Shown here one piece after another: positions 162-25,757 of a stretch of DNA of 51,695 bases. Numbering within the stretch: position 1 is the first letter of the stretch; every line of letters starts with the position of its first letter. This DNA is from Acidobacteriota bacterium (GTDB taxonomy: Bacteria > Acidobacteriota > Aminicenantia > JBFLYD01), in NCBI GenBank assembly GCA_040756905.1, contig JBFLYD010000015.1, forward strand, positions 1 to 51,695, written 5' to 3'. Under the pieces are notes generated by a model. That model searched no databases, was not told the DNA's origin, and saw only the letters and a program-made list of their open reading frames with translations. Position numbers and translations under genes: made by a program.

Positions 162-3100
162 GTTTCAATCCTTGTTTTAATGGAATCTCTTCGCTAACTG
201 TTTCGCATTGACACAGCCCTCATTGGCTCAATCAGTTTCAATCCTTGTTTTAATGGAATCTCTTCGCTAACTATTTTTTTGATTAAAAAAAGTCAAGAAA
301 AATTAAGTTTCAATCCTTGTTTTAATGGAATCTCTTCGCTAACTAATCATTAGGTAATGTTCGAAAATAAATATAAATGTTTCAATCCTTGTTTTAATGG
401 AATCTCTTCGCTAACGAGAATAGCCAGAAATCCTCAGAATTGATGAAGGAGAGTTTCAATCCTTGTTTTAATGGAATCTCTTCGCTAACTATTTTCACTT
501 ACCAGGGAAAAAGATTCAAAGAATTGTTTCAATCCTTGTTTTAATGGAATCTCTTCGCTAACTCAAAATGAAATTAGGATCTTTTTCTAAAGATTTTAGT
601 TTCAATCCTTGTTTTAATGGAATCTCTTCGCTAACATAGTTGATAACAATATTTCTTTAATTTTAAACATGTTTCAATCCTTGTTTTAATGGAATCTCTT
701 CGCTAACTTTCCAATTTGATTTTAGGTCTTTTATATTTTGGATGTTTCAATCCTTGTTTTAATGGAATCTCTTCGCTAACTTCAATAAGAAAAAATTTTT
801 GATATTTTAATTTTTTGTTTCAATCCTTGTTTTAATGGAATCTCTTCGCTAACCCTCTTCCTCTGAAACATCTGGGTTATAAATTCTAGTTTCAATCCTT
901 GTTTTAATGGAATCTCTTCGCTAACCTCATTTAGAGGGGCGTTCAATGATAGTCGTTCCCTGTTTCAATCCTTGTTTTAATGGAATCTCTTCGCTAACAA
1001 AGAAATTCAAGTCCAATCTCAGTGGGATATTGATGTTTCAATCCTTGTTTTAATGGAATCTCTTCGCTAACTAGGCTCAACTGTTTTCATCTGAGAATAA
1101 TATTTAGTTTCAATCCTTGTTTTAATGGAATCTCTTCGCTAACTATTTGAAGGAGACTCAATATAGACAAGAATCTGAAATGTTTCAATCCTTGTTTTAA
1201 TGGAATCTCTTCGCTAACTTTGGAACAGCCTTATATAGAAATCTCATTGCAATCAGTTTCAATCCTTGTTTTAATGGAATCTCTTCGCTAACTGGATGAC
1301 TACATGAATTTAAAACATTCTTTTCCTAGTTTCAATCCTTGTTTTAATGGAATCTCTTCGCTAACACCAGAACATAGAGAAGAGGATGAATCCTAAATCC
1401 AGTTTCAATCCTTGTTTTAATGGAATCTCTTCGCTAACCGTTGGGTTCTGATTCTGGACTTTTCTGGGATAATGGTTTCAATCCTTGTTTTAATGGAATC
1501 TCTTCGCTAACTAAAAAAGGCTTTAAAGGAGTAAAAAAAATGGAAAGTTTCAATCCTTGTTTTAATGGAATCTCTTCGCTAACTTCCTTTTTATGACAGA
1601 CCTCAAACCATGAAAGAAGGTTTCAATCCTTGTTTTAATGGAATCTCTTCGCTAACAGGAAGAGAGACTTGGCAAGAAGAAGTTAAGTATTGTTTCAATC
1701 CTTGTTTTAATGGAATCTCTTCGCTAACAATTATCCTGAGGGAATAGATAAATTAATATTAGGTTTCAATCCTTGTTTTAATGGAATCTCTTCGCTAACT
1801 AATATCTGCTTTAGCTTCAAAAGCTAATTTTTCAATGTTTCAATCCTTGTTTTAATGGAATCTCTTCGCTAACTGCCTGGATAATAGCGTCAATACTTAT
1901 TGAAATATGGTTTCAATCCTTGTTTTAATGGAATCTCTTCGCTAACCAACACGTATTAGAATATGTAAACATATACTACCAGTTTCAATCCTTGTTTTAA
2001 TGGAATCTCTTCGCTAACCTCCCATGAGCTCGATATTTCTATTATCTTCTCTGGTTTCAATCCTTGTTTTAATGGAATCTCTTCGCTAACTTCTTGCCGG
2101 AGCTCCATTAATGCTCTATTTCTGAGTTTCAATCCTTGTTTTAATGGAATCTCTTCGCTAACACCAGCTCCCCCACACGCTATTTTCCATTTGGCGCAGT
2201 TTCAATCCTTGTTTTAATGGAATCTCTTCGCTAACAGATCCTGAGTGTTTTTCCCTGAACTAATGATTGTAGTTTCAATCCTTGTTTTAATGGAATCTCT
2301 TCGCTAACACCGAGAAAGATAAGAGTCCAATTTTTCATCTTCTGTGTTTCAATCCTTGTTTTAATGGAATCTCTTCGCTAACTGGAGATTATTTCGTAGG
2401 AAAAACTCTTAAATGGGAGTTTCAATCCTTGTTTTAATGGAATCTCTTCGCTAACTAAGATTAAAGACGCATTAATCAACAATGAGAAGCTGTTTCAATC
2501 CTTGTTTTAATGGAATCTCTTCGCTAACTCAGATGGGAAATGCTACAAGAACTATGGAATAAAGGTTTCAATCCTTGTTTTAATGGAATCTCTTCGCTAA
2601 CCTCAGATGGAAGTATATGGGAATATATAGGAAATAAGTTTCAATCCTTGTTTTAATGGAATCTCTTCGCTAACATGATGTTTCCCCATCTTTACAATCA
2701 CAGTTAGTTTTGTTTCAATCCTTGTTTTAATGGAATCTCTTCGCTAACTATTTTTTGTTTTTCATATCCTCAATCCTTATCAGGTTTCAATCCTTGTTTT
2801 AATGGAATCTCTTCGCTAACCTTACCCAGTGGATTATTAAGGCTTTTTTCTACAGGGTTTCAATCCTTGTTTTAATGGAATCTCTTCGCTAACTTGCATA
2901 TAAGCTCAATGACACTCTATCGATGGAAAGGTTTCAATCCTTGTTTTAATGGAATCTCTTCGCTAACCTTTGAGCCACATCAGAGGCAACCTCAACATCT
3001 CTAAGTTTCAATCCTTGTTTTAATGGAATCTCTTCGCTAACCTCCCACTATATTGACCTCTGGTATCTCTTCGTTAGGTTTCAATCCTTGTTTTAATGGA

Positions 3101-6100
3101 ATCTCTTCGCTAACGATTCTCAGGTCTTTTCTTAAATGGGATTTGATGAGTTTCAATCCTTGTTTTAATGGAATCTCTTCGCTAACGATGCGACTAATTT
3201 TCTAAATTCTCTATCTGAATCAGTTTCAATCCTTGTTTTAATGGAATCTCTTCGCTAACTGTGGAAGGGAATTTAGTCTCGAAGCACTATGATATGTTTC
3301 AATCCTTGTTTTAATGGAATCTCTTCGCTAACACATGCCTGCTGATTTCATTGCGAGATATTGCTGAGTTTCAATCCTTGTTTTAATGGAATCTCTTCGC
3401 TAACTACATCGCCTTTCATTGCTTTCGTTTTCAACGAGCTGTTTCAATCCTTGTTTTAATGGAATCTCTTCGCTAACTTTCTATATTTAGGATTATTCTT
3501 TAGATAAGTTTCAGTTTCAATCCTTGTTTTAATGGAATCTCTTCGCTAACTATAACACATGTTATGTGGTTTGTCAAGCTTTTCTTGTTTCAATCCTTGT
3601 TTTAATGGAATCTCTTCGCTAACTGGAAGGGAATTTAGTCTCGAAGCACTATAATATGTTTCAATCCTTGTTTTAATGGAATCTCTTCGCTAACAGATAA
3701 AGATATGAGAGAAATCTTAGAGGAAGCTTAGTTTCAATCCTTGTTTTAATGGAATCTCTTCGCTAACTTTCTTTTTTAGTAGTCATTTAACTCAAATATT
3801 ATGTTTCAATCCTTGTTTTAATGGAATCTCTTCGCTAACCATCATCCATGCGAGACTCTTCCCCAAGAAGGAGGAGTTTCAATCCTTGTTTTAATGGAAT
3901 CTCTTCGCTAACCCAACTTTAACAATATTAAATGATACAATAAGTTTTGGTTTCAATCCTTGTTTTAATGGAATCTCTTCGCTAACTGCGGAAGGAAATT
4001 TGGTCTCGAAGCATTATAATATGTTTCAATCCTTGTTTTAATGGAATCTCTTCGCTAACAGGAGGAAGACGATGAGCCACCGTTCTAAATATTTTTTGTT
4101 TCAATCCTTGTTTTAATGGAATCTCTTCGCTAACTTATATCTATGAAACAGTAGATTATTGGCTCAATGGTTTCAATCCTTGTTTTAATGGAATCTCTTC
4201 GCTAACCTTTGCATCATGTGGAGGAGGAATGAAGAAAATGATGTTTCAATCCTTGTTTTAATGGAATCTCTTCGCTAACCAGAATAATATTTGAGAAATA
4301 GCTTTATTATTTTTTGCGGTTTCAATCCTTGTTTTAATGGAATCTCTTCGCTAACCAACTACATCTGCAAACATAAAATACTTTTCTTCCATGTTTCAAT
4401 CCTTGTTTTAATGGAATCTCTTCGCTAACCTCTGAATCATTATTCTGTCCCATTGAGCTCCCAGATGTTTCAATCCTTGTTTTAATGGAATCTCTTCGCT
4501 AACGTGGTTAGCAGAAAAAGGATACGGTTTGACTGTTTTGTTTCAATCCTTGTTTTAATGGAATCTCTTCGCTAACTGCGGAAGGAAATTTGGTCTCGAA
4601 GCACTATGATATGTTTCAATCCTTGTTTTAATGGAATCTCTTCGCTAACCCAGAGCTTACAAAACTTAGTTAAATCCTCTTTGGTGTTTCAATCCTTGTT
4701 TTAATGGAATCTCTTCGCTAACTGAACAAGAAGAAATACTAAGCGAAACGGAGGTTGCAGTTTCAATCCTTGTTTTAATGGAATCTCTTCGCTAACCCTG
4801 AGAAAAAAGATGAAAGCTGAAGAAATTACAAGTTTCAATCCTTGTTTTAATGGAATCTCTTCGCTAACTCCAAGGAAGAAGTATTAAATGCAAATTATGT
4901 AAAGTTTCAATCCTTGTTTTAATGGAATCTCTTCGCTAACCAGGCTTATTACCATCTACCACTTATTACTATAGAGGTTTCAATCCTTGTTTTAATGGAA
5001 TCTCTTCGCTAACCAAAAATAATTGAAAAGCAAGCCTTCCTTGAGTGGAGTTTCAATCCTTGTTTTAATGGAATCTCTTCGCTAACTTGGTTTTCTGATT
5101 GCTTTTGCTTTTGTTAATGGCTCAGTTTCAATCCTTGTTTTAATGGAATCTCTTCGCTAACTCGATTATTGTTGAATCATTAGGTTTTGTATCACTAGTT
5201 TCAATCCTTGTTTTAATGGAATCTCTTCGCTAACAACAAAGAAACCTCAACCTCGAACTATATATAAAATGTTTCAATCCTTGTTTTAATGGAATCTCTT
5301 CGCTAACCTGCAAGCTACCAGAGATTTGAATGTAGTGAAAGATTGTTTCAATCCTTGTTTTAATGGAATCTCTTCGCTAACTCTTTACAAACTTGATTAT
5401 CCTCTACTGTCTGCCAAGTTTCAATCCTTGTTTTAATGGAATCTCTTCGCTAACTATAATACATAAAAATATATTTGTCAAGTTTTTTTGTTTCAATCCT
5501 TGTTTTAATGGAATCTCTTCGCTAACCCATTGAAGTTATAGATATATTCGCAAAATTTGATGGTTTCAATCCTTGTTTTAATGGAATCTCTTCGCTAACT
5601 TGCCGGAGCTCCATTAATGCTCTATTTCTGATCTTGTTTCAATCCTTGTTTTAATGGAATCTCTTCGCTAACCACAACAGCAATATTAAATTGACTGTAT
5701 TGACTTGAGTTTCAATCCTTGTTTTAATGGAATCTCTTCGCTAACAGTTGTGCCCTTTTCTGTGCAATCTCTCTGGGAGGTTTCAATCCTTGTTTTAATG
5801 GAATCTCTTCGCTAACCTTTCAAAGCTCCATGTAAGAATCCATTGTAAGCCAAGTTTCAATCCTTGTTTTAATGGAATCTCTTCGCTAACCTGGTCTAAT
5901 TGAAATAATGCCATCTCGTCCTCCTAAGTTTCAATCCTTGTTTTAATGGAATCTCTTCGCTAACAAATGAGTCTCTGGACAGATGTGGTAGAAGGAAAAG
6001 GTTTCAATCCTTGTTTTAATGGAATCTCTTCGCTAACCTCGAAAACCCAATATGAGGCGAATAACCAGAACGAGTTTCAATCCTTGTTTTAATGGAATCT

Positions 6101-7198
6101 CTTCGCTAACTATAATACATAAAAATATATTTGTCAAGTTTTTTTGTTTCAATCCTTGTTTTAATGGAATCTCTTCGCTAACTTTTAAGGAGAGCGAGAT
6201 TTTCCATAATCTCTTAAAGTTTCAATCCTTGTTTTAATGGAATCTCTTCGCTAACCAGAGTTCTCAAGGAAAAGCCATCTAATTTGCTTTAGTTTCAATC
6301 CTTGTTTTAATGGAATCTCTTCGCTAACCATCTAAAATCCGCCTTCTTTTTTATTTCATAAACAAGTTTCAATCCTTGTTTTAATGGAATCTCTTCGCTA
6401 ACCTTCCTGAATTTCGAACTGAGGAAAGAGAATGAAAGGTTTCAATCCTTGTTTTAATGGAATCTCTTCGCTAACCTGGTGGAGAAGATATGAAGTGATG
6501 AAAGAAAGGTAGTTTCAATCCTTGTTTTAATGGAATCTCTTCGCTAACGAAGGTTCTCTATTCAAACAAGAAATGTTGAAGAGTGTTTCAATCCTTGTTT
6601 TAATGGAATCTCTTCGCTAACAACTGTAAAAGGCCTAAGACAAATAGATAGCACCAGTTTCAATCCTTGTTTTAATGGAATCTCTTCGCTAACTCCCTGT
6701 TCCCTGACCGAATGGGATGTATCCCAGAAGTTTCAATCCTTGTTTTAATGGAATCTCTTCGCTAACTCCAGAGATTTGGCAAGATATTTTCATCTCCCAG
6801 AAGTTTCAATCCTTGTTTTAATGGAATCTCTTCGCTAAATAGCTCAATATCAGTGGAAAATACAGGAAATGCTGTTTCAATCCTTGTTTTAATGGAATCT
6901 CTTCGCTAATTTTTATGATGTCGGAAAGTTCTTTGCCCAGGACTTTGTTTCAATCCTTGTTTTAATGGAATCTCTTCGCTAAGAATGATCAACTGAAACC
7001 CCTGTTGTTGTTAGGGGGTTTCAATCCTTGTTTTAATGGAATCTCTTCGCTAATATATTAGAGCAAATTGGAAAAGCAATTATTGGAAAGGTTTCAATCC
7101 TTGTTTTAATGGAATCTCTTCGCTAACTTTGGTATTCAATGAATGGGCAGCAATATGGATTGTTTCAATCCTTGTTTTAATGGAATCTCTTCGCTAAG
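162..7198 (-). CRISPR. CRISPR array, type I-D, 97 repeats / 96 spacers
   Basis: The repeat is 37 bp; on the plus strand it starts GTTTCAATCC and ends CTTCGCTAAC. I count 97 copies by eye, with spacers mostly 35-37 bp. On the minus strand the repeat begins GTTAGCGAAG and ends GGATTGAAAC, giving the 8-base handle ATTGAAAC typical of type I crRNAs, so transcription and crRNA polarity are taken as minus, leader on the right. Repeats are essentially invariant except the leader-end base of the six rightmost units (6839 A, 6910 T, 6983 G, 7054 T, 7127 C, 7198 G, plus strand), which is always C elsewhere. The spacer at 5455-5489 is identical to that at 6111-6145. A four-member family of near-identical spacers lies at 3260-3295, 3624-3657, 3987-4022 and 4577-4612. 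Spacers at 2091-2125 and 5600-5635 overlap by 32 bases with a shift. Confidence 0.99.
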
Positions 7199-7514
7199 GC
7201 AAATTCTCCGTAAGCCCTTATTTTTTCTCAATTTCCTTATTTTTGAGAAAAGCATTTTTTATTAAATATCCTTTAAAATTTGCACAATTTTTTGTGCATT
7301 TTATTTAGCATTTACATATTTATTTTTTTGCTTTCTGCTTAATTTTCAATTCTTTACAATGTCAATGCTCTTTTTCTTTAATAATTTTCCTTCATTTATT
7401 GTCAGCGAAATAAATTTTTCAAATATCCAGAGATATCTTACACGAGATATCCATAAAATTCTAAATTCAACACTAAAAATTTGCAATAAAAAATTTCATT
7501 ATTTTTTACCCCAT
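7199..7514 (-). promoter_or_regulatory. CRISPR leader
   Basis: This is a very AT-rich, gene-free stretch between the newest repeat and the cas4 stop. Two inverted repeats are visible: an 8-bp arm pair TTTCTCAA / TTGAGAAA at 7224-7231 and 7243-7250, and TGCACAA / TTGTGCA at 7281-7298 with a 4-base loop. A minus-strand TTGACA at 7360-7365 could be the -35 of the array promoter, though no good -10 follows at 16-18 bases. Leader identity follows from repeat polarity, AT content and the base changes in the adjacent repeats. The 7359-7601 open frame on the plus strand is not credible as a gene. Confidence 0.8.
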
Positions 7515-9374
<1,860 letters not shown>

Positions 9375-9390
9375 TTTTCGATTACCTTCT

Positions 9391-9852
9391 CTATCGCATA
9401 TTGTAAAGGCAAAGTAATGCTGCCCAGCCAGATGGCAACATGTCTGGAGGTTCTTTTAGCTCCTTACCATATTTGACGACCATCTCCAAAAAGAATTTGG
9501 CATGGAAAAAAGCCTCAACAAAAACTCTGGTATGATACGCCCAGTTTTTATTATGGCTCGGTTCAAATTTCTTCCCACTGGCACCAGACTCAATGATTTG
9601 CTGAAATTCTTGACAAAAACTCTGTCCTCTGGGTGCTATGGCTTTTAAAGCCTCAATAATCTTCTTGGTTTTATTTTGAAGATCATAGACTTTAAAGGAT
9701 TGATAATAGAAACGGTAGATAGAGTCCTCATAGCACCAGTGAGAATTCATTTCTTCTAAAAGCTTTTCAAGTTCTGGGAGCCTTAATTTAATGTTGGCAA
9801 GTAACTGAGCATCCAACATCTTAGCCGATTTGAAGATTTCCCTTTTCTTCAT
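9391..9852 (-). CDS. Unrecognised 153-aa protein in the adaptation module
   Basis: I do not recognise a named function. The protein is soluble and helical, with no signal peptide or membrane segment. Its C-terminal half looks strongly conserved in style: a HNKNW motif around residue 101, then HTRVFVEAFFHAKFFLEM, then KYGKEL and a LPSGWAALLCLYNMR end rich in Trp, Gly and aromatic residues. From memory I associate this ending with scattered uncharacterised bacterial proteins, not with a Cas family. It lies between the cas6 remnant and cas1, 16 bases upstream of cas1, on the same strand, so it is probably co-transcribed with the adaptation genes. Whether it works in CRISPR immunity or is a passenger cannot be decided here. 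Confidence 0.75.
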   Translation of the reverse strand: MKKREIFKSAKMLDAQLLANIKLRLPELEKLLEEMNSHWCYEDSIYRFYYQSFKVYDLQNKTKKIIEALKAIAPRGQSFCQEFQQIIESGASGKKFEPSHNKNWAYHTRVFVEAFFHAKFFLEMVVKYGKELKEPPDMLPSGWAALLCLYNMR

Positions 9853-9855
9853 TCT

Positions 9856-9962
9856 TTATTTTATCTTTATAACTGTCCCAAACCCTCTCGAAACCGACTT
9901 TCCGAGACCTAATAATCTAAAATTGAAAAGTTGACAGAGAAATGCGAGATAATCGAGCATGG
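9856..9962 (-). pseudogene. cas6: Decayed 3' end of a second cas6
   Basis: On the minus strand this segment ends in a frame reading GLGKSVSRGFGTVIKIK then TAA (9856-9858). It matches almost exactly the C-terminal glycine-rich loop of the intact Cas6 encoded at 10924-11583 (GLGKSVSRGFGTVIKIG). DNA similarity continues upstream to ATGCTCG (9954-9960), where the intact gene also has ATGCTCG, but small indels put the upstream part out of frame. No 5' part remains; the similarity stops just before the hepT stop codon. It is a truncated, frameshifted paralogue lying 3 bases upstream of the 153-aa gene. Confidence 0.8.
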
Positions 9963-9967
9963 AAGTA

Positions 9968-10408
9968 TTAAGCGAGATTATCAATATAAATGTATATTAC
10001 ATATTTAAATCTTTTTAGCGTTTCTTCAAGCTCATCTATGAGTGGTTTCAATTCTTCCCACCTAAGTGTAAAACTATAAGCATGGACAAAAAAGTGCCTG
10101 AAGGATAGATAGTTTGATAAAGTATTGTACAATTCGTTGCTGATGATTCCTGCATCAGAAGCTGCCTTTAGTAAATCTTTATGCCAACTGGGGGAGTCTT
10201 TTATCTCTAATTGTTTGAAAGAGACAACCCTTTTTAAAATATTTTCAATACCGTTATAAAAGTTATGGATAAAAGTAGCAATGGCTGCTAAATCCGGAAT
10301 AGAATATTCAGATTTTCCAGTGCTTAGGAAGGAAAACAGTTCAGATACAACAGCATCTATATTTTCAAATTCTGCTTCACAGTATTCTTTAAGCAGCTGT
10401 TTTGTCAT
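9968..10408 (-). CDS. hepT: HEPN-domain toxin, HepT family
   Basis: 146 aa all-helical HEPN protein with the RNase-type RX4H motif (Arg104-HFFV-His109, followed by AY). In characterised MntA-HepT pairs, HepT is the toxin and is neutralised when MntA adds AMP near the RX4H motif. Here it overlaps the upstream nucleotidyltransferase gene by 20 bases, the usual arrangement of the pair. It is embedded in the cas operon between cas6 and the adaptation genes, same strand. It is far too short to be a Csm6/Csx1 effector and has no CARF domain. Confidence 0.88.
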   Translation of the reverse strand: MTKQLLKEYCEAEFENIDAVVSELFSFLSTGKSEYSIPDLAAIATFIHNFYNGIENILKRVVSFKQLEIKDSPSWHKDLLKAASDAGIISNELYNTLSNYLSFRHFFVHAYSFTLRWEELKPLIDELEETLKRFKYVIYIYIDNLA

Positions 10409-10676
10409 AAATAAGTTTACCTTCTCTTAGAATGATTTCCTTAAATTTTGTCATTTTCCCTGAAAGGTCTATTAAATCCACATTCTTTGACAACGACCTG
10501 AATAGTTCTCCATAAAATTTAAAGAAATTTCCTGTGGGCACATCTATGACAGCAAAGTCATAATCATTAATATCATTTGGATCTTTATATAGTGAAGACC
10601 CAATTAAGTACATTTTCCCAATACCATATTTTCTGGCAATTTCAATGGCTCTATCAAGCTCGTATTTTGGTATCAT
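10389..10676 (-). CDS. mntA: Minimal nucleotidyltransferase antitoxin, MntA family
   Basis: 95 aa minimal nucleotidyltransferase. The family signature GSX10DXD is exact: Gly26-Ser27, ten residues, then Asp38-Tyr-Asp40. In known pairs it AMPylates and inactivates the HEPN partner. The start is supported by GGAGGTGTT directly before the ATG. It overlaps hepT by 20 bases, so the two are coupled. A miniature inverted-repeat element lies immediately upstream (10691-10895) and separates the pair from cas6, so the pair may be read from the cas operon or from a promoter in that element. Confidence 0.9.
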   Translation of the reverse strand: MIPKYELDRAIEIARKYGIGKMYLIGSSLYKDPNDINDYDFAVIDVPTGNFFKFYGELFRSLSKNVDLIDLSGKMTKFKEIILREGKLIYDKTAA

Positions 10677-10690
10677 AACACCTCCATATG

Positions 10691-10895
10691 AATATTATAG
10701 GCTGTTCAATAACTCGCAAATCATTGAAAAGTAAAGATCTGCGAGCTGTCCCAGATTTTTCTTACTGCAACTTCCGAAAAAAGACTTGCTAAAAATTTTC
10801 CTTCTCTGTCTTTGCTCTTTACTATGCTTTAATGTTTTCATTTCTTAAAACAACCTCAAAAAAACCTTCCTTTATTGAACAGCCTCAATATTATA
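10691..10895. mobile_element. Miniature inverted-repeat element with target duplication
   Basis: A 14-bp perfect terminal inverted repeat, AGGCTGTTCAATAA at 10699-10712 and its complement at 10872-10885, is flanked by the direct repeat AATATTATA at 10691-10699 and 10887-10895. This is the architecture of a non-autonomous transposed element of about 187 bp. It contains no open frame. The ends resemble those of several DDE-transposase IS families, but I cannot name one. It is inserted between cas6 and mntA. Confidence 0.75.
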
Positions 10896-10923
10896 ATATT
10901 TTCTATTTCCCATTTCCTATCGC

Positions 10924-11583
10924 TTATTTTACACTTCCTATTTTTATTACCGTCCCAAACCCTCTTGATACAGATTTTCCAAGTCCCCAATAATCCGGGA
11001 TTTCAAAGTTTACTGAAAATGTGCCAACAAACCCGAGCATGGGCGTGCCTTTGAGAGAGGTGTGAACTTCATAAACATCTACCTTAGCAATAATCTTATC
11101 AGTTATTACATATTCAAGCCCTTTAGCCATAGAAATAATATTACCTATGAGAATGCTTTCTAACTGTTTCTTCCTTTCTCCGCTATTCCTTTTTTTATAA
11201 CGATTAAAACTCTCTTCATCAAGCGCAAGCCATGGAGTGAGGAATTTGTAAGAAAGCATTCCATTTATCACGCCAAAAGAATTATTTTCTCTCAATAGTT
11301 TTTTATCTATAACTGTATATTGTTTATTTTTCAAATTTAGATATTCGATAATTAATATTTCTTCAACAAATTCAGAAACTTCACCAATCCCTAGAATCAT
11401 AGGAATCTTATCTATTATTTTGTATTGAATTTTCGGATAGGTATAAATAAAACCTTTCTCTGAATGATTATGCAAGAAAGGATTATTGCGGAACTTTCCC
11501 GCGATAAAACCTCTCAGTGTAGTAGGTGAATCTACGACTGGACGGTCAGTTATCAGTGTTAAAATGCAATTATTAATTTGCAT
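10924..11583 (-). CDS. cas6: CRISPR pre-crRNA endonuclease Cas6
   Basis: 219 aa RAMP-fold endoribonuclease that cuts the repeat to leave the 8-base 5' handle. The C-terminal glycine-rich loop GLGKSVSRGFGTV (roughly residues 200-212) is the family hallmark; the N-terminal ferredoxin-like half is divergent. The start ATG overlaps the csc1 stop by one base (TGATG), so the reading is coupled. A second, decayed copy of its 3' end lies at 9856-9962. A catalytic His is not obvious at the usual N-terminal position, as in many I-D Cas6 proteins. Confidence 0.88.
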   Translation of the reverse strand: MQINNCILTLITDRPVVDSPTTLRGFIAGKFRNNPFLHNHSEKGFIYTYPKIQYKIIDKIPMILGIGEVSEFVEEILIIEYLNLKNKQYTVIDKKLLRENNSFGVINGMLSYKFLTPWLALDEESFNRYKKRNSGERKKQLESILIGNIISMAKGLEYVITDKIIAKVDVYEVHTSLKGTPMLGFVGTFSVNFEIPDYWGLGKSVSRGFGTVIKIGSVK

Positions 11584-12302
11584 CAGATAATTGCTATATG
11601 TGGTGTTCTCTTAATGTTATTTTCTAAAAAATCAAAACTATCTGGTAAGGCAATATATTTTGAAAACCCGTCAACCTTTATTTCGATGCACCTTTCACAT
11701 ACTGCATTTTCAATAATTGGATACGGAAACATCCCGATCATCATTCCTCTTATTGTCTTACTTACAAGTGGGTCAACAAGATGAGCAACTAAGGCTTTGT
11801 CTTTTTCTTTTAAAACTCTTATTTCTTCTAAATTAAGAAGTGCCTTACCACGAAAACTGCCAAGCCTGATAATTAACGGGAAAATCATCTCTTTCCTGAC
11901 AATTAAAAAACCTTCAAAAATACTTTCAGGAGGAATTGAGAAAAGTTGAGATGCCTTTAATACTTCTGCTTTTCCGGTAGAAGCACCATAACCAAGTTTC
12001 ACGAAATTATCATCTTCACCCTTTGCAATTTCTGAGATATATCTTATATTTCCGATTGGTCTGCCAGGTGTAAAATAAAAGGCTTCTGAAGCAAGAGAGT
12101 TTTCATATCGAGGCGTATTCCTTCCCCTGTTTTCTTCGGAAATTATATAGGGCTGAGCTTCTGGATTTATTCCTAAAGAATATGCCACTGCATAATTAAT
12201 AGCGGTAGCATGAAGATACTTAGGAGATATAGCTCCTGAAAGACCCTCCTTAGAATAAAACAAAGGGTCTATTAGCTCTATCTTATATTTAAAAACTTTC
12301 AT
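11583..12302 (-). CDS. csc1: Type I-D Cascade subunit Csc1 (Cas5d)
   Basis: 239 aa RAMP protein of the Cas5 group, expected to cap the crRNA 5' handle in the type I-D effector. The identification rests on size, N-terminal pattern (YKIELIDPLFYSKEGLSG) and position between csc2 and cas6. A paired-Cys motif lies near the C terminus (AVCERC). It is separated by one base from csc2 and overlaps cas6 by one base. The Cas5 group is divergent, so context carries much of the weight. Confidence 0.88.
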   Translation of the reverse strand: MKVFKYKIELIDPLFYSKEGLSGAISPKYLHATAINYAVAYSLGINPEAQPYIISEENRGRNTPRYENSLASEAFYFTPGRPIGNIRYISEIAKGEDDNFVKLGYGASTGKAEVLKASQLFSIPPESIFEGFLIVRKEMIFPLIIRLGSFRGKALLNLEEIRVLKEKDKALVAHLVDPLVSKTIRGMMIGMFPYPIIENAVCERCIEIKVDGFSKYIALPDSFDFLENNIKRTPHIAII

Positions 12303-12303
12303 G

Positions 12304-13095
12304 CTATTCTTTAGATTCCTCTGGTTTTTTCTTCAACAGAGGCTTTATCAGATTCTTCACCTGTTCATCTAATGTCTTATAAGCTTCCTCTACTACTGGT
12401 AACTTTAAATCATCAATTTTTCCAAAGCCGTCAATCTTCGAGTCAATTAGATTGTATGCCGTTAAAGCCTCTCTATCAGAGAGCTTAAATCCAAGTATAG
12501 TTGTCTCTACCCTGCCCCATTCTACACTTCTTGCTCCAATTCTCGTAAGTCTCTTCAAATTATCCACTATAATAGATGCAATCTCAGGTGTAGGGTCTTT
12601 TAAAGTTATTACTCCGATAAACTCTGTTTCTTTAGGAACAGGAGTGATGCTCATTAATGCCTGCCCTGTAGTAAGGTCTTCTTCATCAACTGCATTCTGC
12701 GTATATGGCTGGATTTCACCAACTTGACTTGTTGATATGAATGACTCCCCAAGTATTCTCGCAAGAATGTTATATGGTACATTAGCACTACTGGTCTCAC
12801 CAGTTCCACCAAATATAAAACAACTGGAACATTTCATACATAAATCGTCTTTTAAATGACAACCGGGTTCAATATTAAGGCTTCTTTGCTTCTCCATAAC
12901 AAGTCTTCTAAGCTTTGCTTTGATTTTACGCCAAGGGATAACAAAACGGTTACCAAGAGATTGATACTTAAATGTCAAAACCTCTTCTGGATCATTGCTC
13001 CTAATAATGGCTTCATCAAGAAATTTTATTTTGGTCACGAGCTGAAGATAAACCCCTTGTGAAAGAATAGATGGCTCTTTTAATAAAGGAGTCAT
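12304..13095 (-). CDS. csc2: Type I-D Cascade backbone subunit Csc2 (Cas7d)
   Basis: 263 aa Cas7-family backbone subunit that polymerises along the spacer part of the crRNA. Characteristic features are the zinc-type cysteine set (Cys79, Cys86, Cys89, Cys92) in a CMKCSSCFIFGG context and the later SVEWGRVETTI segment. The C terminus is Lys/Glu-rich. The start overlaps the cas10d stop by 4 bases. Length fits Csc2; type III Cas7 proteins lack this cysteine arrangement. Confidence 0.93.
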   Translation of the reverse strand: MTPLLKEPSILSQGVYLQLVTKIKFLDEAIIRSNDPEEVLTFKYQSLGNRFVIPWRKIKAKLRRLVMEKQRSLNIEPGCHLKDDLCMKCSSCFIFGGTGETSSANVPYNILARILGESFISTSQVGEIQPYTQNAVDEEDLTTGQALMSITPVPKETEFIGVITLKDPTPEIASIIVDNLKRLTRIGARSVEWGRVETTILGFKLSDREALTAYNLIDSKIDGFGKIDDLKLPVVEEAYKTLDEQVKNLIKPLLKKKPEESKE

Positions 13096-15680
13096 TTTAG
13101 CACCTCCTGAAGGTTTTCATATCGTTTAAAAACATAAATTGCACTAAGAAGGGAATTCTTTACTCTGATAAACTGAGTTATATTGTCTTTTTTTAAATCA
13201 TAATACCTTTGAAAAATGCCTTTTGCTTCTCTGACAAACTCCTCAAGTTCTTTAATATCGGTTTTAGCCTCACCAGATTTTTCCTTTGCAATATTTTCTC
13301 TGATATGAGAAAGAAACTTTGCAAAGGCTTCATCAAAACTTCTGCCAAGGAGCATTTCATTAAGGCTTTGGCTAACAGGTTTCCCAATAGAATGCTTTGA
13401 CATACTTTTGAACCATTTTTGCCACTCATCCTGAGTCCAACAGAATTTTGGTATGCCATTAGCAAAAAAGACGGCATCATTTAAAAGATTATCCATTTTG
13501 TATTCACCTCCCATCGTTTTATATATAACCAAGCCAGATTTATAAATAAACTCATAGAACCTCTCCATAAGTTCGGGCGAAAGTTTGAGCCTATTTGTTT
13601 TTCCTCGTGTTTCGGAAGTGTATGTAATTGCCACACTGGGACTTTTCTCAAGAAGATCTTTTGCCATAATATACTTCTTCTGTCCCTTCTCCAAAATGCT
13701 TGCCAATAAAATAACTGACAATGATTTATAGTATTCTTCCTCCGTACTTAGAATTGATTCCCCAAAAAGACCTACCTGCTCCTCTGTGCCGAGAGAAGTT
13801 TCAAAACCTAATAGGTTCAAGAAATGATAAAGAGGCTCATATCTAACTCTCATATCTTTAGGGCTAAAATTTTTTGTTTCTTTTGCTGAAAGAGTCTGAA
13901 TATCAAACAATATACCTTGTTCACTTGATAAGATTTCTTTTGTATCGCTCCTATATTTTTCTGGAGGAATTGGGATTTTGAGCCTTTTAACAAATGGGAT
14001 ATTCCTGAATTCTTTTCTCTCTTCAAGTTTAGATATCTGATAAGGTGCTGAAACCCCGCTTTTAACTTTTGCAACCAAATCATCAAGTTCAGGATAAAGG
14101 CTTATTAACTCCGGCACTTTCGAAGAGATTCTTGTATAAATCCGCAAGTTCCTGTCTCCGAGTCCTTCTCTTAACACCATGTTATCATAAGCACACATAG
14201 GGCACGTTGCCCTTGACCCTGCGGGTTTAGATATGATTTGAGAAAAACCGTAGCCGACCCCTCTTTTATATTTCAATGCAGGTTGTGCCTCCATAGATAC
14301 AGGGCATTGACACCGTTCACAAACACCCTTTAATGCATCCGTTGTCTTTTTATAAGTTTTATATCTTTCAAATATCTCAGAAGCTATCTTTCTAAAGTCT
14401 TTTTCTTCTTCCATTGAAAGAACGCTGTTTAAATAATCAAGCATTTCTTGTGAACCTGACATTTTCTTTTCGTAATCTTCTGCAATTTTATGCAAAAGTA
14501 TAAACAAATTATCTGGCTTCAAATTTGAAAGCTTGTCGTCTAAATATTTTTTATCTGCAATAAACTCATCTGGAATCACATCCTTTACAGTCAAGATGTT
14601 TAAAAGATGTGACAGAGTATTGGTATTAATAGATGCTGGCGGATTTTCACCAAAAGCTTTTTCCCATTGCCTTTTTGCCTTTGGATGTCCGCTGGTTCCA
14701 AGACAAGCACCGATAGTGTTCCATTTCGGAAGGTTCTTCTTTATCTTTGAAAACTCTGAAGAATCTAAAGAAAAGATATCGTATAAGATTCTTAAAAATT
14801 GCACACCCTTTCTTGATACATCGCCAAGATTTCCAATTATTTCATTCTTATGGTTAGCTGCAATCATAAACTGCGCTGGGAAAACTTTAGATAGTCCACC
14901 AAGAAGGGCTTTAGTAAATGCTTTTGGATAAGCCGATTGAATACCAAGTGATTTATCAAAGAAGGCTTTTGAAATACTTTCTATAATTTTTTCTTTTTCT
15001 GGATAAGAAAGTCCCTTTCCGATAAACAAAGCGGCATTGTCAAATGTTAAGAGAAGTTCCCATCCTAAAGATTGATATTCTTTAAAAATGTTTCTTAAAA
15101 AATGAAATGTCGTCGGCGAAGGGAATCTTGAGACCTCAAAATAAGTAAGATCAAACAATTCATCACAGTATTGTCTAACTTTATTAATAGTTTCCGGTGA
15201 AATACTCTCCATAGAAGCAAGCCAATCGGCATACCTTACTAATTCAGTAAATATTCCTGCTGAATCAGTACTTATTTCTTTTATGTCAGAGTCTGATAGG
15301 CTATGATGCGGCTTGATGGTATCGTATATAAATTTGATATCTGATTCGGTAAGTTCAAAGGGCAATATCCCTTTTAAGTCTTCTTTATTTAAATATTTTC
15401 TTACTTCTTCAATGGTAGATTTATGGTCTCTTGGATTCTCTCCTTCACCTCTGAAAAATTTCTGGCTTTCTTCTCTCAGTTTTCCGATGTCGTGAATTAA
15501 GCATGAGAGTTCCAACAGTTCTTTTTCTCTGTCGTCTAGCGACGGGATAAACCGACCCATCTTTCTGAAAACATTCCAAACTGCAAAATGATGAGCCCAC
15601 AACTGCTCACCGTTCGATTTGGCCAGATAACCAAATTGAGGCTCGAGGAATACTTTTACTTCTTTAATTTCCATGCTCAT
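13092..15680 (-). CDS. cas10d: Type I-D large subunit Cas10d (Csc3) with HD nuclease
   Basis: 862 aa Cas10-like large subunit of the I-D effector. The N-terminal HD nuclease domain is intact: His30/31, the His63-Asp64 pair in LIHDIGK, His86, paired His125/126 and Asp152. In type I-D this HD domain sits in Cas10d, not in Cas3, and supplies the DNA nuclease. A zinc finger follows (Cys454, Cys457, Cys493, Cys496). I see no GGDD palm motif, so cyclic-oligoadenylate synthesis is not expected. The start overlaps the cas3' stop by 4 bases; Met3 is an alternative start. Confidence 0.95.
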   Translation of the reverse strand: MSMEIKEVKVFLEPQFGYLAKSNGEQLWAHHFAVWNVFRKMGRFIPSLDDREKELLELSCLIHDIGKLREESQKFFRGEGENPRDHKSTIEEVRKYLNKEDLKGILPFELTESDIKFIYDTIKPHHSLSDSDIKEISTDSAGIFTELVRYADWLASMESISPETINKVRQYCDELFDLTYFEVSRFPSPTTFHFLRNIFKEYQSLGWELLLTFDNAALFIGKGLSYPEKEKIIESISKAFFDKSLGIQSAYPKAFTKALLGGLSKVFPAQFMIAANHKNEIIGNLGDVSRKGVQFLRILYDIFSLDSSEFSKIKKNLPKWNTIGACLGTSGHPKAKRQWEKAFGENPPASINTNTLSHLLNILTVKDVIPDEFIADKKYLDDKLSNLKPDNLFILLHKIAEDYEKKMSGSQEMLDYLNSVLSMEEEKDFRKIASEIFERYKTYKKTTDALKGVCERCQCPVSMEAQPALKYKRGVGYGFSQIISKPAGSRATCPMCAYDNMVLREGLGDRNLRIYTRISSKVPELISLYPELDDLVAKVKSGVSAPYQISKLEERKEFRNIPFVKRLKIPIPPEKYRSDTKEILSSEQGILFDIQTLSAKETKNFSPKDMRVRYEPLYHFLNLLGFETSLGTEEQVGLFGESILSTEEEYYKSLSVILLASILEKGQKKYIMAKDLLEKSPSVAITYTSETRGKTNRLKLSPELMERFYEFIYKSGLVIYKTMGGEYKMDNLLNDAVFFANGIPKFCWTQDEWQKWFKSMSKHSIGKPVSQSLNEMLLGRSFDEAFAKFLSHIRENIAKEKSGEAKTDIKELEEFVREAKGIFQRYYDLKKDNITQFIRVKNSLLSAIYVFKRYENLQEVLK

Positions 15681-17257
15681 GCACCATAAAATATGAAATG
15701 TTCATTTGCTATTATATGAAGTTCTCCATCTTCTTTAATATATTTTGTAGTTACATTAAAATATTCATCTCTTAATCTTCCACTTCCAACACCCCAAAAG
15801 GGGAAAATCTTGTCATGAATAATAATTTCTTTTATTTTTGTATCTGCTATGCCGTATCTCTTTAATATTTCCTGTTTTTTATGCCTATCTAAAGTCATCC
15901 AATCATCTACAATTTCTTCCGGCTCAAACATCGAAAAGATAGCCTCATTATAAGGAGTGATATTCTTAGTGTCAATGTCATAAAGCAGGAAGTTGTAACT
16001 ATCTCCCCTAAACATTTCGCCTGAAACCAATTTGCCAGAAGGGTCTCTAAGAACCTCCTGTAAAATACTTTTCTCAAATACATCTCTTTCAAAACAGGTT
16101 TGATCTTTAACTGCCCATCCAAAATCATTTTTAGTCAGAATCACAACTGTTCCATTGGATTTTCTGCCGACCCGACCTATTCTCTGAATGGCTGACGTCC
16201 AATAAGATGCTTCTGTTATTAAAGACTTAAAGTCCATATCAATACCTACTTCAATAGCTGAAGTTCCAATGACAACAGATTTATCATCTAGAGAAAATGA
16301 CTTGGCCTTTTCCAATCCACTCCACTCATAAAACTTGTATTGCTTGAACGTATTAATTAATTTTTTCTTGATATGTTGAAGTCTGAATACAGAGTCAAAT
16401 ATAATTGCAGCAGGCTTAGGAATAGATGGGATTAATTCTTTCAGGTTCTCATAGACTAAATCTAATTTTGTAAATTTAAAAGCACGGATTTCTATATCAA
16501 GAGGAAAATTGAATTCTGCATCTCTTTTGTTTCCCACCGAGTCTGTAAAGGAAATATTAAGTGACGGATAAATATTGTTTAGAGTAGAAAGTTCTTTGCT
16601 CATATATGGCGTAGCAGATAGCAATACTACCTTAGATGCTATTCCATCCAGAAGATTTTTTATCAATTCCAAAAAGTTGGAAAGATTAACATACAGATGA
16701 AATTCATCAAAAAATACTATTGCACCTTGTAAATAGTTCTGTAATCTTTTAGAACTTTTATAAGTCTCGCGATTTATGAGGAGATGCAAAACATCTGGAG
16801 ACGTTATAATAACTGACCTTTTAGAAAAAAGCCTACTTTGAATTACTGCCTGTTTTATTAACTCGCTTTTGTTAAGCTCTATATCAATACCTTTATTAAC
16901 TAGATATCTAAACAACGAATTAGAGGAATAATTAAAAATATTAATTCCATTGGGTATAAAATCATCATCTGGCCATATAGCGGTATCCTTTAATTCTTTT
17001 CGCATTGCGCCAACTTGGGCATCCATTAAAATCCTCGTTGGATATGTAAGAATAATTCGTTTTCCCGTATCCTGGAAATATCTATCTTGTATTAGGTTTC
17101 TTATGATATAACTTTTCCCTGAACCTACTGGTGCTTCCACAAAGATTAATATCGCATCTGAATTTTTGATTGCCTCTAAAGTCTGTCTTTGAAACGGCCT
17201 AAATCCATCCTTATTCTGCCTGACGTACCGAGGGCCTATTTTTAGATTAATATTCAT
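15677..17257 (-). CDS. cas3': Type I-D helicase Cas3'
   Basis: 526 aa superfamily 2 helicase that unwinds target DNA for the HD nuclease of Cas10d. Motifs in order: Walker A APVGSGKS (42-49), DEFH (184-187), SAT (214-216), and motif VI QRIGRVGR (358-365). There is no HD domain, as expected for the I-D Cas3' type. It is the first effector gene of the operon. AAGGAG lies just upstream of the ATG, supporting this start. Confidence 0.94.
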   Translation of the reverse strand: MNINLKIGPRYVRQNKDGFRPFQRQTLEAIKNSDAILIFVEAPVGSGKSYIIRNLIQDRYFQDTGKRIILTYPTRILMDAQVGAMRKELKDTAIWPDDDFIPNGINIFNYSSNSLFRYLVNKGIDIELNKSELIKQAVIQSRLFSKRSVIITSPDVLHLLINRETYKSSKRLQNYLQGAIVFFDEFHLYVNLSNFLELIKNLLDGIASKVVLLSATPYMSKELSTLNNIYPSLNISFTDSVGNKRDAEFNFPLDIEIRAFKFTKLDLVYENLKELIPSIPKPAAIIFDSVFRLQHIKKKLINTFKQYKFYEWSGLEKAKSFSLDDKSVVIGTSAIEVGIDMDFKSLITEASYWTSAIQRIGRVGRKSNGTVVILTKNDFGWAVKDQTCFERDVFEKSILQEVLRDPSGKLVSGEMFRGDSYNFLLYDIDTKNITPYNEAIFSMFEPEEIVDDWMTLDRHKKQEILKRYGIADTKIKEIIIHDKIFPFWGVGSGRLRDEYFNVTTKYIKEDGELHIIANEHFIFYGA

Positions 17258-18914: not shown

Positions 18915-19073
18915 ATGGAAGAGGCAAAGGTAAAAATTAAAGTAAACGGGAAGGGATTATTTTTAAAGCCATTCATTCAGGACATGGTGAAGAATGTAGT
19001 AATTGGGATGCTTCAATCTTTAAAGATTGAAGATAAAGAAATTAGAGAGATTGAAATAAGGATAACTTTATGA
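18915..19073 (+). CDS. Conserved-looking 52-aa protein
   Basis: The start is fixed by GGAGGAGGAG just before the ATG at 18915; an earlier in-frame start at 18864 has no ribosome site. The product is small and basic (KVNGKGLFLKPFIQDMVKNVVIGMLQSLKI, with EIEIRITL at the end), suggesting two terminal beta strands around one helix. I do not recognise a function. It is divergent from the nuclease gene and lies 85 bases upstream of the molybdate transporter-MoaA fusion. Confidence 0.6.
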   Translation: MEEAKVKIKVNGKGLFLKPFIQDMVKNVVIGMLQSLKIEDKEIREIEIRITL

Positions 19074-19151
19074 TTTTTTTTAAATCTATTGAATCGATAA
19101 AACATTTTTAATTAAAATGAATAGTTTAGATTATTGAGATATATTTATAAT

Positions 19152-19158: not shown

Positions 19159-21261
19159 ATGAGATATTTTAAAAAAGATTTTCTAAGAGATTTTTCAGGA
19201 GCATTTGGTGATACAGGTACATTCATCCCTTTAGCTCTGGGAATGATCATTATATGTGGTCTTTCACCCACCTCAGTTTTTTTGCCTGCTGGTGTTTTAT
19301 ATGTAATTGCAGGGTTGTATTATAAAATACCGATGCCGGTTCAGCCCCTGAAAGCTGTTGCAGCCATATCCATTGTTAATGGAATTAAGCCTGAAATAAT
19401 TTCAACGAGTGCCTATATAATGGCGGCATTGATGGCAATATTTCTTATTTTTGATTTTTCAAAATATTTAGAAAAAATTTTTTCGAAGCCCTTGGTAAGA
19501 GGAATTCAGTTCGGGCTTGGCATATTACTTATAAAAAGTGGCATTGAGTTAGTCTTCAAAAAGGAAATTATCACAGGAGTTTTACTTCCTGATGTTAAAT
19601 TCAGTGGTTTCTCCCTTGGCCCTAATCCTTTATCATTCTTTTTTCCAGCATTTGATAATTTATTAACCGCTTTTGTTATCTTAATTATACCTCAAATTCC
19701 TCTTACTCTTGGGAATTCAATAGTTGCAACTTCTGACCTTGCAAAAGACTATTTTGGAGATAGAGCTAAAAAAGTTAACCACAATAGCCTCGCAAAAACT
19801 ATTGGTTTTGGAAATTTTTTTGCAGGGATGCTTTCAGGAATGCCGTTATGCCATGGATGCGGAGGACTTACCGCCCATTATAGGTTTGGTGCAAGAACAG
19901 GAAGGGCAAATTTAATAATCGGTTTTACTTTTATAATTGTTGCCCTTTTTTTTGCGAGAATGAGTTCTTATTTCTTAAGAGGAATTCCTCTTTATGTTTT
20001 TGGCATAGCCCTTGTTTTTATTGGAATCTTTCATTCGCTTTTAGCCCGAGATTTGAATAAAGGGAAAGATATTTTTATTGTGATGATAATGGGTCTTATT
20101 ACACTTTTTTATAAAAATTTTACTCTGGCGTTGTTTTCAGGATTAGCTCTTAGAGAAGCTTTGAATTACAAAGTGTATTGGGAGAAGTTAAATAATTTTA
20201 AAGTTTCAATTTTTAATAGAAAGAATAAGTCAGAAGCTTTTAAGTATAATGGGTCTCACAAAGAAGAAAGAGTTGAAACAACGCGACATCTTTTTGACAG
20301 ATATAACAGGGCTATTACATATTTAAGGATTTCTCTTACAGAGAACTGTAATCTGAAGTGCCTTTATTGTATGCCAAAACAGGATTCAGTAAAAGCATTA
20401 AAAAAAGATTTTCTTACAAATTCTGAAATTTATAGAATGGCAAAGATTGCAGTTTCACTTGGAATAGAGAAGATAAGATTAACAGGAGGAGAGCCTCTTT
20501 TAAGAGAAGGAATAATAGAATTGATTGAAAAGATTTCTTCTATAGATAACCTGAAAGACCTTTCTCTTTCGACAAACGGAACTCTGCTGGAGAAATACGC
20601 TGATTCCTTGAGAAAAGCTGGATTAAAAAGGATAAATATAAGTCTTGACACCCTTGATGAGAAAAAATTTGAAATTATAACCAGGGGAAAAAAATTAGGT
20701 TCAGTCCTTAATGGAATAAGAAAAGCAAAACTTGCAGGGCTCAAGCCAATTAAGATAAATGTTGTTGTTCTTAAAGGAATAAATGACGATGAACTGGAGA
20801 ATTTTATAAAATTTGGTAAAGAGTATGATCTGATTGTAAGGTTCATCGAATATATGCCGATTGTTTTGAATGAAAAATGGAAGAAATATTTTATCTCGAG
20901 AGAAGAGATTATTCAAAGAATATCTTCCTTTTTAGATTTTAGAGCATATCCGTATGAAAATTCAGGTGATCCCTCAAGATATTTTTATCTTGAAAGTGGA
21001 GGAGAAGCTGGAATCATAAGCCCTGTAAGCCATGGGTTCTGCCATAATTGTAATAGATTGAGGCTTACTGCTGATGGTTTTCTTAGAAGCTGCCTTACCC
21101 ATGATATTGAAATTGATGTAAAAACACCCTTGAGAGAAAATGCTGGCGATGAGACAATTTCAGAGTTATTCAAAAAAGCTGTTTTACTTAAACCAGAAAA
21201 AGGAATTTATAACCTGAGGGAAGAGACCATAAGGAGAAACATGTCCCAGATTGGAGGTTGA
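19159..21261 (+). CDS. moaA: MOT1-type molybdate transporter fused to MoaA
   Basis: 700 aa in one uninterrupted frame. Residues 1 to about 345 form a multispanning SulP-related MOT1-like transporter (FSGAFGDTGTFIPLALGM at the start, MPVQPLKA near residue 55, a MPLCHGCGG loop). Residues about 370-700 are a full radical-SAM GTP 3',8-cyclase: the Cys397-x3-Cys401-x2-Cys404 cluster motif, TGGEPL, the second cluster CHNCNRLR with a further Cys in RSCL, and the C-terminal Gly-Gly required in MoaA. The linker contains no Met, so no internal ATG start separates the two halves. The protein would couple molybdate import to the first step of pterin synthesis at the membrane. mobA follows after 4 bases. 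Confidence 0.92.
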   Translation: MRYFKKDFLRDFSGAFGDTGTFIPLALGMIIICGLSPTSVFLPAGVLYVIAGLYYKIPMPVQPLKAVAAISIVNGIKPEIISTSAYIMAALMAIFLIFDFSKYLEKIFSKPLVRGIQFGLGILLIKSGIELVFKKEIITGVLLPDVKFSGFSLGPNPLSFFFPAFDNLLTAFVILIIPQIPLTLGNSIVATSDLAKDYFGDRAKKVNHNSLAKTIGFGNFFAGMLSGMPLCHGCGGLTAHYRFGARTGRANLIIGFTFIIVALFFARMSSYFLRGIPLYVFGIALVFIGIFHSLLARDLNKGKDIFIVMIMGLITLFYKNFTLALFSGLALREALNYKVYWEKLNNFKVSIFNRKNKSEAFKYNGSHKEERVETTRHLFDRYNRAITYLRISLTENCNLKCLYCMPKQDSVKALKKDFLTNSEIYRMAKIAVSLGIEKIRLTGGEPLLREGIIELIEKISSIDNLKDLSLSTNGTLLEKYADSLRKAGLKRINISLDTLDEKKFEIITRGKKLGSVLNGIRKAKLAGLKPIKINVVVLKGINDDELENFIKFGKEYDLIVRFIEYMPIVLNEKWKKYFISREEIIQRISSFLDFRAYPYENSGDPSRYFYLESGGEAGIISPVSHGFCHNCNRLRLTADGFLRSCLTHDIEIDVKTPLRENAGDETISELFKKAVLLKPEKGIYNLREETIRRNMSQIGG

Positions 21262-21265
21262 TTGA

Positions 21266-21898
21266 TTGACCGGGATAATTTTGGCAGGAGGAGAAGGGAA
21301 GAGGTTTAGAAAGGATAAAGCTGAAATTAAGCTGAATGGAGAATTATTAATAGAAAGGATTGTATCAAAATTAAGAAAATCCTTTAAAGAGGTTTTAATA
21401 ATAACATCCGAGAAGAAACTAAAAGGTTATGAAAGAAATTTTTCAGGATCGGATGTAAAGATTTATCCTGATATATATTCTGAGAAAGGCGCGATTGGAG
21501 GAATTTACAGTGGATTAAATTTTTCATCCAGCTATCATTCTTTCTTTGCTGGATGCGACATGCCTTTTTTGAATTTATCTCTTATTGAGTATTTTAAAAA
21601 TATATCTGAAGGAAATGATGTAGTTGTTGCAAAATTTAAATCAGGATTTGAGCCCCTTCACGCTGTTTATTCCAAAAGGTGCATAAATTATATCGAAGAC
21701 CTAATTAAAAAAGATAATTTAAGAATTTTTGATTTTTTTAATGAGGTGAAACTGAGAATCGTTAAGGAGGATGAAATTAGAAGATATGACCCTGAAAAAT
21801 TAAGTTTTTTTAATATTAATACTGAAGAAGATCTGAACAAAGCAATTAAGATTCAAAAACTCTTGAATAAAAAGAAGAGCAAGAGGTGTAAGGCATGA
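21266..21898 (+). CDS. mobA: Molybdenum cofactor guanylyltransferase MobA
   Basis: 210 aa nucleotidyltransferase that attaches GMP to molybdopterin to make MGD. The N-terminal motif is LAGGEGKRFRKDKAEI and the later GCDMPF segment is typical of MobA. The start codon is TTG at 21266, with GGAGG at 21252-21257 overlapping the end of the preceding gene. It lies 4 bases after moaA and 1 base before mobB. MGD would serve the DMSO-reductase-family subunit at 35150-37615 if that protein carries cofactor. Confidence 0.93.
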   Translation: MTGIILAGGEGKRFRKDKAEIKLNGELLIERIVSKLRKSFKEVLIITSEKKLKGYERNFSGSDVKIYPDIYSEKGAIGGIYSGLNFSSSYHSFFAGCDMPFLNLSLIEYFKNISEGNDVVVAKFKSGFEPLHAVYSKRCINYIEDLIKKDNLRIFDFFNEVKLRIVKEDEIRRYDPEKLSFFNINTEEDLNKAIKIQKLLNKKKSKRCKA

Positions 21899-21899
21899 A

Positions 21900-22400
21900 A
21901 TGCGAAGCTCGATGATACCTATCATCTGCATCGTTGGGAAATCTGATTCAGGTAAAACAACTCTTATTGAGAAATTAATCCCTGAGCTAAAAAAGAGAGG
22001 ATTCAAAATAGGAACAATTAAACATGATATCCATGGATTTGATGTGGACAGGGAGGGGAAGGATTCATACAGACATAAAAAAGCAGGGGCTTCTTTTGTT
22101 TTGATTACTTCTCCGAAGAAGATTGCTTTAATAAAAGATATAGAGAAAGAATACAATCTTGATGAGCTAAGAAAAAAGTTCATCGAAGGGGTTGATTTAG
22201 TACTTGCTGAAGGATTTAAAAGGAGCTCCTGCCCTAAAATTGAGGTATTCAGAAAAGATTTGCATGGAGAACTTTTGTGCACTGAGAAGGATAATCTCAT
22301 TGCCATTGTCTCAGATAAAAAATTTGATTTAAATGTTCCTGTATTCAATTTAAATGAATTATCTGAATTAGCTGATTTTATCGTAAAAAAATTTTTATGA
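21900..22400 (+). CDS. mobB: Molybdopterin-guanine dinucleotide adapter MobB
   Basis: 166 aa P-loop protein. The Walker A GKSDSGKTT sits near the N terminus, followed by KIGTIKHDIHGFDVDREGKDSYRHKKAGA, the standard MobB pattern. MobB assists MobA in MGD handling. The first ATG is 1 base after the mobA stop; Met5 (21912) is a possible alternative start. It is the last gene of this short operon, followed by about 100 bases with no gene and a convergent porin gene. Confidence 0.93.
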   Translation: MRSSMIPIICIVGKSDSGKTTLIEKLIPELKKRGFKIGTIKHDIHGFDVDREGKDSYRHKKAGASFVLITSPKKIALIKDIEKEYNLDELRKKFIEGVDLVLAEGFKRSSCPKIEVFRKDLHGELLCTEKDNLIAIVSDKKFDLNVPVFNLNELSELADFIVKKFL

Positions 22401-25145: not shown

Positions 25146-25757
25146 ATGGACAAGGAAAAAATTAAGAAAACAAAGGGAATTTCAAGAAGAAATTTTTTGA
25201 AAGGTCTTGGAGCTGGAATTGCTACAGGAATTGTTTATCCAAAAGGTGCTGAAAGCCAGGTTATATATGAATCCTTAGGTGAAACTCAAAAAAGAGCAAA
25301 AATAAATATATGGGTTAATGGAATTTTGTATGATATGGAGGTTGAAAATAGAGCAACTTTGCTCGAATTATTGAGAGATTATTTAGAATTGGCCGGAACA
25401 AAAATGGGCTGCAACTCCTCAGAATGTGGAGCATGTACTGTTCTTATAGATGGAAAAGCCTTTTATTCCTGTAGCATTTTAGCTGTTGATTGTGATGGTA
25501 AAAAAATTGAGACAATTGAGGGTCTTTCAAAAAATGGCGAGCTCCATCCAGTTCAAAAAGCATTTATTGAACATAATGCTTTTCAATGTGGATTCTGTAC
25601 TCCAGGGGAGATAATGTCCTTAAAGGGATTGTATGATGTTAACCCAGCACCTTCTAAGGAAGATATAATAATTGCACTGTCCGGAAACTTGTGCAGATGT
25701 GGAGTTTATAAAGATATTATGGAAGCTGCAATTTCTCTAAGCAGAAGTGGAAAATAA
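25146..25757 (+). CDS. paoA: Tat-exported 2Fe-2S subunit, PaoA-like
   Basis: 203 aa. The N terminus has a twin-arginine signal (SRRNFLKGLGAG). Two [2Fe-2S] sites are complete: Cys-x4-Cys-x2-Cys with a distal Cys (GCNSSECGACTVLIDGKAFYSC), and CGFCTPGE with GNLCRCGVY. This is the small electron-transfer subunit of a xanthine oxidase-family enzyme. The exported small subunit and the 4Fe-4S loop in the FAD subunit both match periplasmic PaoABC aldehyde oxidoreductase. AGGAGA precedes the ATG. Confidence 0.93.
   Translation: MDKEKIKKTKGISRRNFLKGLGAGIATGIVYPKGAESQVIYESLGETQKRAKINIWVNGILYDMEVENRATLLELLRDYLELAGTKMGCNSSECGACTVLIDGKAFYSCSILAVDCDGKKIETIEGLSKNGELHPVQKAFIEHNAFQCGFCTPGEIMSLKGLYDVNPAPSKEDIIIALSGNLCRCGVYKDIMEAAISLSRSGK

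Follow-up and report, generated by a model that had tools for sequence, protein, structure and literature searches.

MoaA turns GTP into 3',8-cH2GTP, after which MoaC, MPT synthase and Mog act; molybdenum is inserted at the last, MoeA/Cnx1-type step, and MoaA does not use molybdate. On the transporter side, both termini of Arabidopsis MOT1 are cytosolic and Arabidopsis MOT1.2 interacts with the Mo-insertase Cnx1 (PMC9147641). Fusions of molybdoenzymes are reported in a survey of molybdenum utilisation (PMC6147048), and fusions of SulP transporters with carbonic anhydrase are the subject of Felce and Saier 2004, to go by the title cited in PMC11423575 and PMC3924187.

The gene described here lies in a window of 51,695 nucleotides (the whole stretch of DNA that was analysed), which is an entire contig of the draft genome of an uncultured bacterium (69 contigs, 2.56 Mb, 98% complete). 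Its frame runs without internal stop from the ATG at 19159 to the stop codon at 21259-21261 and encodes 700 aa. Above the Pfam cut-offs it matches MFS_MOT1 in two stretches, Radical_SAM and Mob_synth_C. The open frame and the Pfam and NCBIfam matches bear out the single 700-codon frame through both domains noted in the preliminary description, and at the sequence level a MOT1-family domain and a MoaA are joined in one chain; what did not hold is the completeness of the MOT1 half, from which two helices are absent. Judged from its sequence, this is a new domain architecture built from two known families, represented by one example in one draft genome. The predicted structure has a pLDDT below 50 over the membrane half, for which it is uninformative, and its MoaA core is partly confident.

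Table 1. Features of the fused gene and its surroundings, in window positions
Feature	Position	Strand	Basis
Fused gene: MOT1-family domain, linker and MoaA	19159..21261	+	Open frame; Pfam and NCBIfam matches
TATAAT box, possible -10 box of a leaderless transcript	19146..19151	+	Read from sequence, 7 nt before the ATG; weak
MOT1-family membrane domain, aa 1-345, two PF16983 repeats	19159..20193	+	142.5 bits, alignment
Approximate site of two absent transmembrane helices, aa ~133-150	19555..19610	+	Alignment and hydropathy; boundaries approximate
Linker, aa 346-376 (~30 residues), basic, no Met	20194..20286	+	Sequence, codon usage, MoaA alignment
MoaA domain, aa 377-700, cysteines 397/401/404 and 628/631/645, C-terminal GG	20287..21258	+	TIGR02666, S. 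aureus MoaA match, conserved positions
MobA-like NTP transferase gene	21266..21898	+	PF12804; TTG start 4 nt past the fusion stop, GGAGG before it
MobB gene	21900..22400	+	PF03205

The TATAAT box upstream of the gene was absent among the sites returned by a consensus scan, whose site count was not clearly above that of shuffled sequences. A small ORF of 52 aa, whose ATG is preceded by a GGAGGAGGAG stretch and which has no Pfam match, lies just upstream of the fusion (18915-19073). A search of the window for a Moco riboswitch with Rfam matched CRISPR repeats only. These belong to an array of 97 repeats at 162-7198 (Rfam CRISPR-DR7 match), which is followed on the minus strand (7515-17257) by genes that by eye are Cas4-, Cas1-, Cas6-, Csc1/Csc2-, Cas10d- and Cas3-like; the region 162-17257 thus suggests a type I-D system.

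The C-terminal half matched the NCBIfam moaA equivalog TIGR02666 over the entire profile (1-336 of 336; aa 378-700) with 359 bits, against a cut-off of 284. The N-terminal CxxxCxxC motif corresponds to C397, C401 and C404, the C-terminal CxxCx13C motif to C628, C631 and C645, and the Gly-Gly to residues 699-700. A complete MoaA with both Fe-S cysteine sets and the terminal Gly-Gly, as first described, is therefore present. Nearly all strongly conserved MoaA positions are kept (52 of 53), and the nearest solved structure is that of S. aureus MoaA (4.2e-60). It is the one MoaA found in the genome, and we regard it as probably a catalytically intact GTP 3',8-cyclase, a judgement that belongs to the joint explanation given below.

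The N-terminal half contains two PF16983 stretches scoring 142.5 bits, compared to a curated cut-off of 30, and is likewise the one MOT1 found in the genome. It has kept the motifs GDxGT, PMPVQPxK, PQIPLTLGN, CHGCGG and FGARTG and 38 of the 48 positions on which 21 or more of the 23 other MOT1 proteins of the phylum agree, to which it is 28-36% identical. A sequence search for a relative of this half with a solved structure returned none. The segment between the repeats is 28 residues long in the fusion and 55-78 residues long in the others, a shortfall of typically 35 and up to 50 residues. According to alignment and hydropathy, two hydrophobic helices occupy this segment in all 23 aligned MOT1 proteins of the phylum and are absent from the fusion, whose membrane half thus does not have the helix set of the family members and is not the complete MOT1-type transporter that had been proposed. 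If MOT1 has an SLC26/UraA-type fold, the missing pair would correspond to gate helices. As the loss is even-numbered, the C terminus should stay on the same side of the membrane.

Beyond mobB, a porin gene on the opposite strand is followed by an XdhC-like gene and a three-subunit molybdenum hydroxylase, and a second MobA-like NTP transferase and a DMSO-reductase-family enzyme are also encoded downstream. The 2Fe-2S subunit of the hydroxylase (25146-25757) carries a TAT signal, and the enzyme is therefore probably exported. MoaC, MoeA, MoeB-like and MoaB/Mog-like proteins are encoded elsewhere in the genome, as is a TupABC-like cluster, which was named by eye and from its similarity to E. coli ModB. 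A search for MoaE in this 98% complete genome, which has MoaA, MoaC, MoeA and a number of molybdoenzymes, returned none.

In the class, moaA usually lies in an operon of the tupABC-moeA-moaA-moaC-mog type. In three other members of the phylum, MOT1 shares a Moco operon with moaA. Two of these, moaA-(MOSC-like)-MOT1-mobB (L106:411-3051) and moeA-moaA-MOT1-moaC-mog (L118:3811-8612), support a molybdenum role of bacterial PF16983 proteins; in the third the order is moaA-MOT1-mobB (L108). The closest MOT1 (L117), however, has no recognised Moco genes within ~5 kb, so that molybdate is not assured as the substrate. The Moco genes next to the fusion and next to MOT1 in these operons lend molybdate transport indirect support. 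In quick trees, the MoaA half was placed beside the MoaA of its own class with weak support, whereas the MOT1 half grouped with a MOT1 from another class (support 0.99), and the two halves therefore probably have different histories. A complete MOT1-family gene (392 aa) was also observed on the IMG/VR contig IMGVR_UViG_3300011266_000070 (L155:2929-4107), where its neighbours are phage-like genes for a primase and a DNA methylase. The helix pair appears by eye to be present in its product, which is possibly a virus-borne oxyanion transporter.

The explanation that we favour, with somewhat more than even confidence, is that of one real polypeptide, in which an intact MoaA is held on the cytoplasmic side by a shortened MOT1-family domain and which arose by fusion of operon neighbours. 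We infer each of its parts, namely the single polypeptide in the cell, the topology, the activity and the loss of transport. Most likely, adjacent co-directional MOT1 and moaA genes would have been joined by the loss of the intervening stop and start, leaving both domains in one frame with the mobA- and mobB-like genes directly after it. The MOT1 C terminus would face the cytosol, and 3',8-cH2GTP would be made there as in other bacteria. As this is the sole MoaA found in the genome, the fusion would supply its product to the whole cell. The two lost inter-repeat helices favour an anchor or a molybdate-binding scaffold over a full-rate transporter as the role of the MOT1 half, even though the conserved motifs are kept, and uptake of molybdenum or tungsten could run through the TupABC-like importer encoded elsewhere in the genome. 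The MoaA enzyme is thus probably membrane-anchored, and molybdate transport by the fusion protein is doubtful.

Alternatively, the protein may be bifunctional, the shortened MOT1 still importing molybdate and the MoaA tying pterin supply to uptake, either through expression of the two at a fixed 1:1 ratio or through closeness to the later Moco enzymes. The intact signature motifs of the MOT1 half and a helix number that is still even after the loss of two are compatible with transport, and the pairing of MOT1 with a Moco enzyme makes sense, since MOT1 genes lie within Moco operons of related bacteria and plant MOT1.2 binds Cnx1 (PMC9147641). However, every relative compared has the missing pair, which in an SLC26/UraA-type fold would be part of the gate, and molybdate is not a substrate of MoaA; we consider this alternative rather unlikely. 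There is no direct metabolic logic in the proposal that the fusion brings GTP cyclisation to the place where molybdate enters, since the substrate of MoaA is GTP and molybdenum is inserted last. Substrate channelling at a molybdate importer was rejected on the same pathway grounds, as MoaA does not use molybdate. The fusion might conceivably serve as a supply sensor, as was also proposed. In an improbable reading of this kind, the MOT1 half would have changed from a transporter into a receptor, with its conserved core motifs kept and part of the transport machinery lost; molybdate bound to it would alter how active the fused MoaA is, and the cell would begin to make pterin only with molybdate present.

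A second fusion was sought in several collections. None was found in the 142 genomes of the class, nor in an even draw of 396 genomes of the phylum, nor in further class-level searches of 41, 13, 93, 2 and 162 genomes (overlapping sets); other MOT1 genes were seen in these searches. The architecture was thus not encountered in any independent genome of these sets, which include none of the same family or genus, and this lowers confidence in a genuine gene fusion rather than disproving it. Among plasmid sequences, no match covered 80% of the fusion protein. In 84,980 genome species, a scan for the MOT1 motif CHGxGG followed ~440-500 nt further on by the MoaA motif CNxxCxYCMP did not reveal a second fusion either, but its sensitivity was low, the first motif being present in 26 of 26 MOT1 genes of the phylum and the second in 0 of 18 of its MoaA genes. 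Its two matches were attributed to chance. A protein-level scan of these species returned no relative whatever, although MoaA is common, and was therefore insensitive. Two long MOT1 frames of 660 and 528 aa were rejected as fusions, their length being due to high-GC read-through upstream. Among open-licence papers, none on MOT1 joined to MoaA was found. With neither a second example in the genomes and plasmids searched nor such a paper, these results agree with the earlier remark that no protein of this architecture is known to be described.

The joint between the two halves was analysed as well. The observation that the linker contains no Met was confirmed, and there is no in-frame ATG, GTG or TTG between GTG 20173 and the MoaA core. 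Its codon usage amounts to ~0.23 bit per codon in frame 0, compared to 0.24 for the MOT1 and 0.29 for the MoaA domain. The openness of the linker alone is weak support, since stretches of 36 stop-free codons arise in 17% of wrong-frame samples; the joint is nevertheless more than chance, because homologous domains lie in frame on both of its sides. In alignments, the start Met of most MoaA homologues falls within a few residues of fusion residue 378, the MOT1 domain ending at about residue 345. An in-frame ACG at 20281, preceded by a purine-rich stretch, lies near this start position and is possibly what remains of a MoaA start codon that was lost.

The linker also contains an off-frame ATG at 20249. 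If one base were missing from the assembly at ~20252-20274, there would be two overlapping genes, moaA starting at this ATG and MOT1 ending at TGA 20274. The fusion, and perhaps the missing helices, would then be artefacts of a draft assembly of 69 contigs, and MOT1 and moaA would be two adjacent genes in the organism; the coincidence of two anomalies in one gene and the failure of the searches to find a second example fit such an error. Nevertheless, the joint contains no long homopolymer, the codon usage of the linker is coding-like, neither the two domains nor the motifs of the shortened half show other damage, and ATG 20249 has no clear Shine-Dalgarno sequence, which makes an error of this type improbable. 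It is still less probable that a separate MoaA is made in addition, by proteolysis in the linker or by internal initiation at GTG 20173, TTG 20161 or the non-standard ACG 20281, for although the MOT1 domain has GTG and TTG in frame near its end and the ACG follows a purine-rich stretch, the former two lack a well-placed Shine-Dalgarno sequence and ACG is a very poor start codon.

If the fusion is real, it is to our knowledge the first case in which a MOT1-type membrane protein is covalently linked to the enzyme that opens Moco synthesis, and it would support a place for bacterial PF16983 proteins in molybdenum metabolism. Whether the membrane half is a carrier, an anchor or a sensor is the question posed by the missing helix pair.

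Compared to known MoaA proteins (S. aureus 1tv7/1tv8; TIGR02666), the fusion shares the full-length match, the Fe-S cysteine triads, the terminal GG and the conserved positions, but MoaA is normally a separate protein, whereas in the fusion a membrane protein carries it as its C-terminal half. With the MOT1 family (PF16983, MFS_MOT1) it has in common the two repeats above cut-off and the conserved motifs, whereas it lacks the two inter-repeat helices, is only 28-36% identical to the phylum members and carries a C-terminal enzyme. In the Arabidopsis MOT1.2-Cnx1 pair, too, a MOT1 protein has a Moco enzyme physically attached to it at the cytosolic face of the membrane (PMC9147641); the plant link, however, is non-covalent and involves the last enzyme, the Mo insertase, whereas that of the fusion is covalent and involves the first. 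The SulP - carbonic anhydrase fusions, as far as the cited title describes them, likewise join an anion transporter to a cytoplasmic enzyme of related metabolism, but there the fused enzyme acts on the transported ion, whereas MoaA does not act on molybdate.
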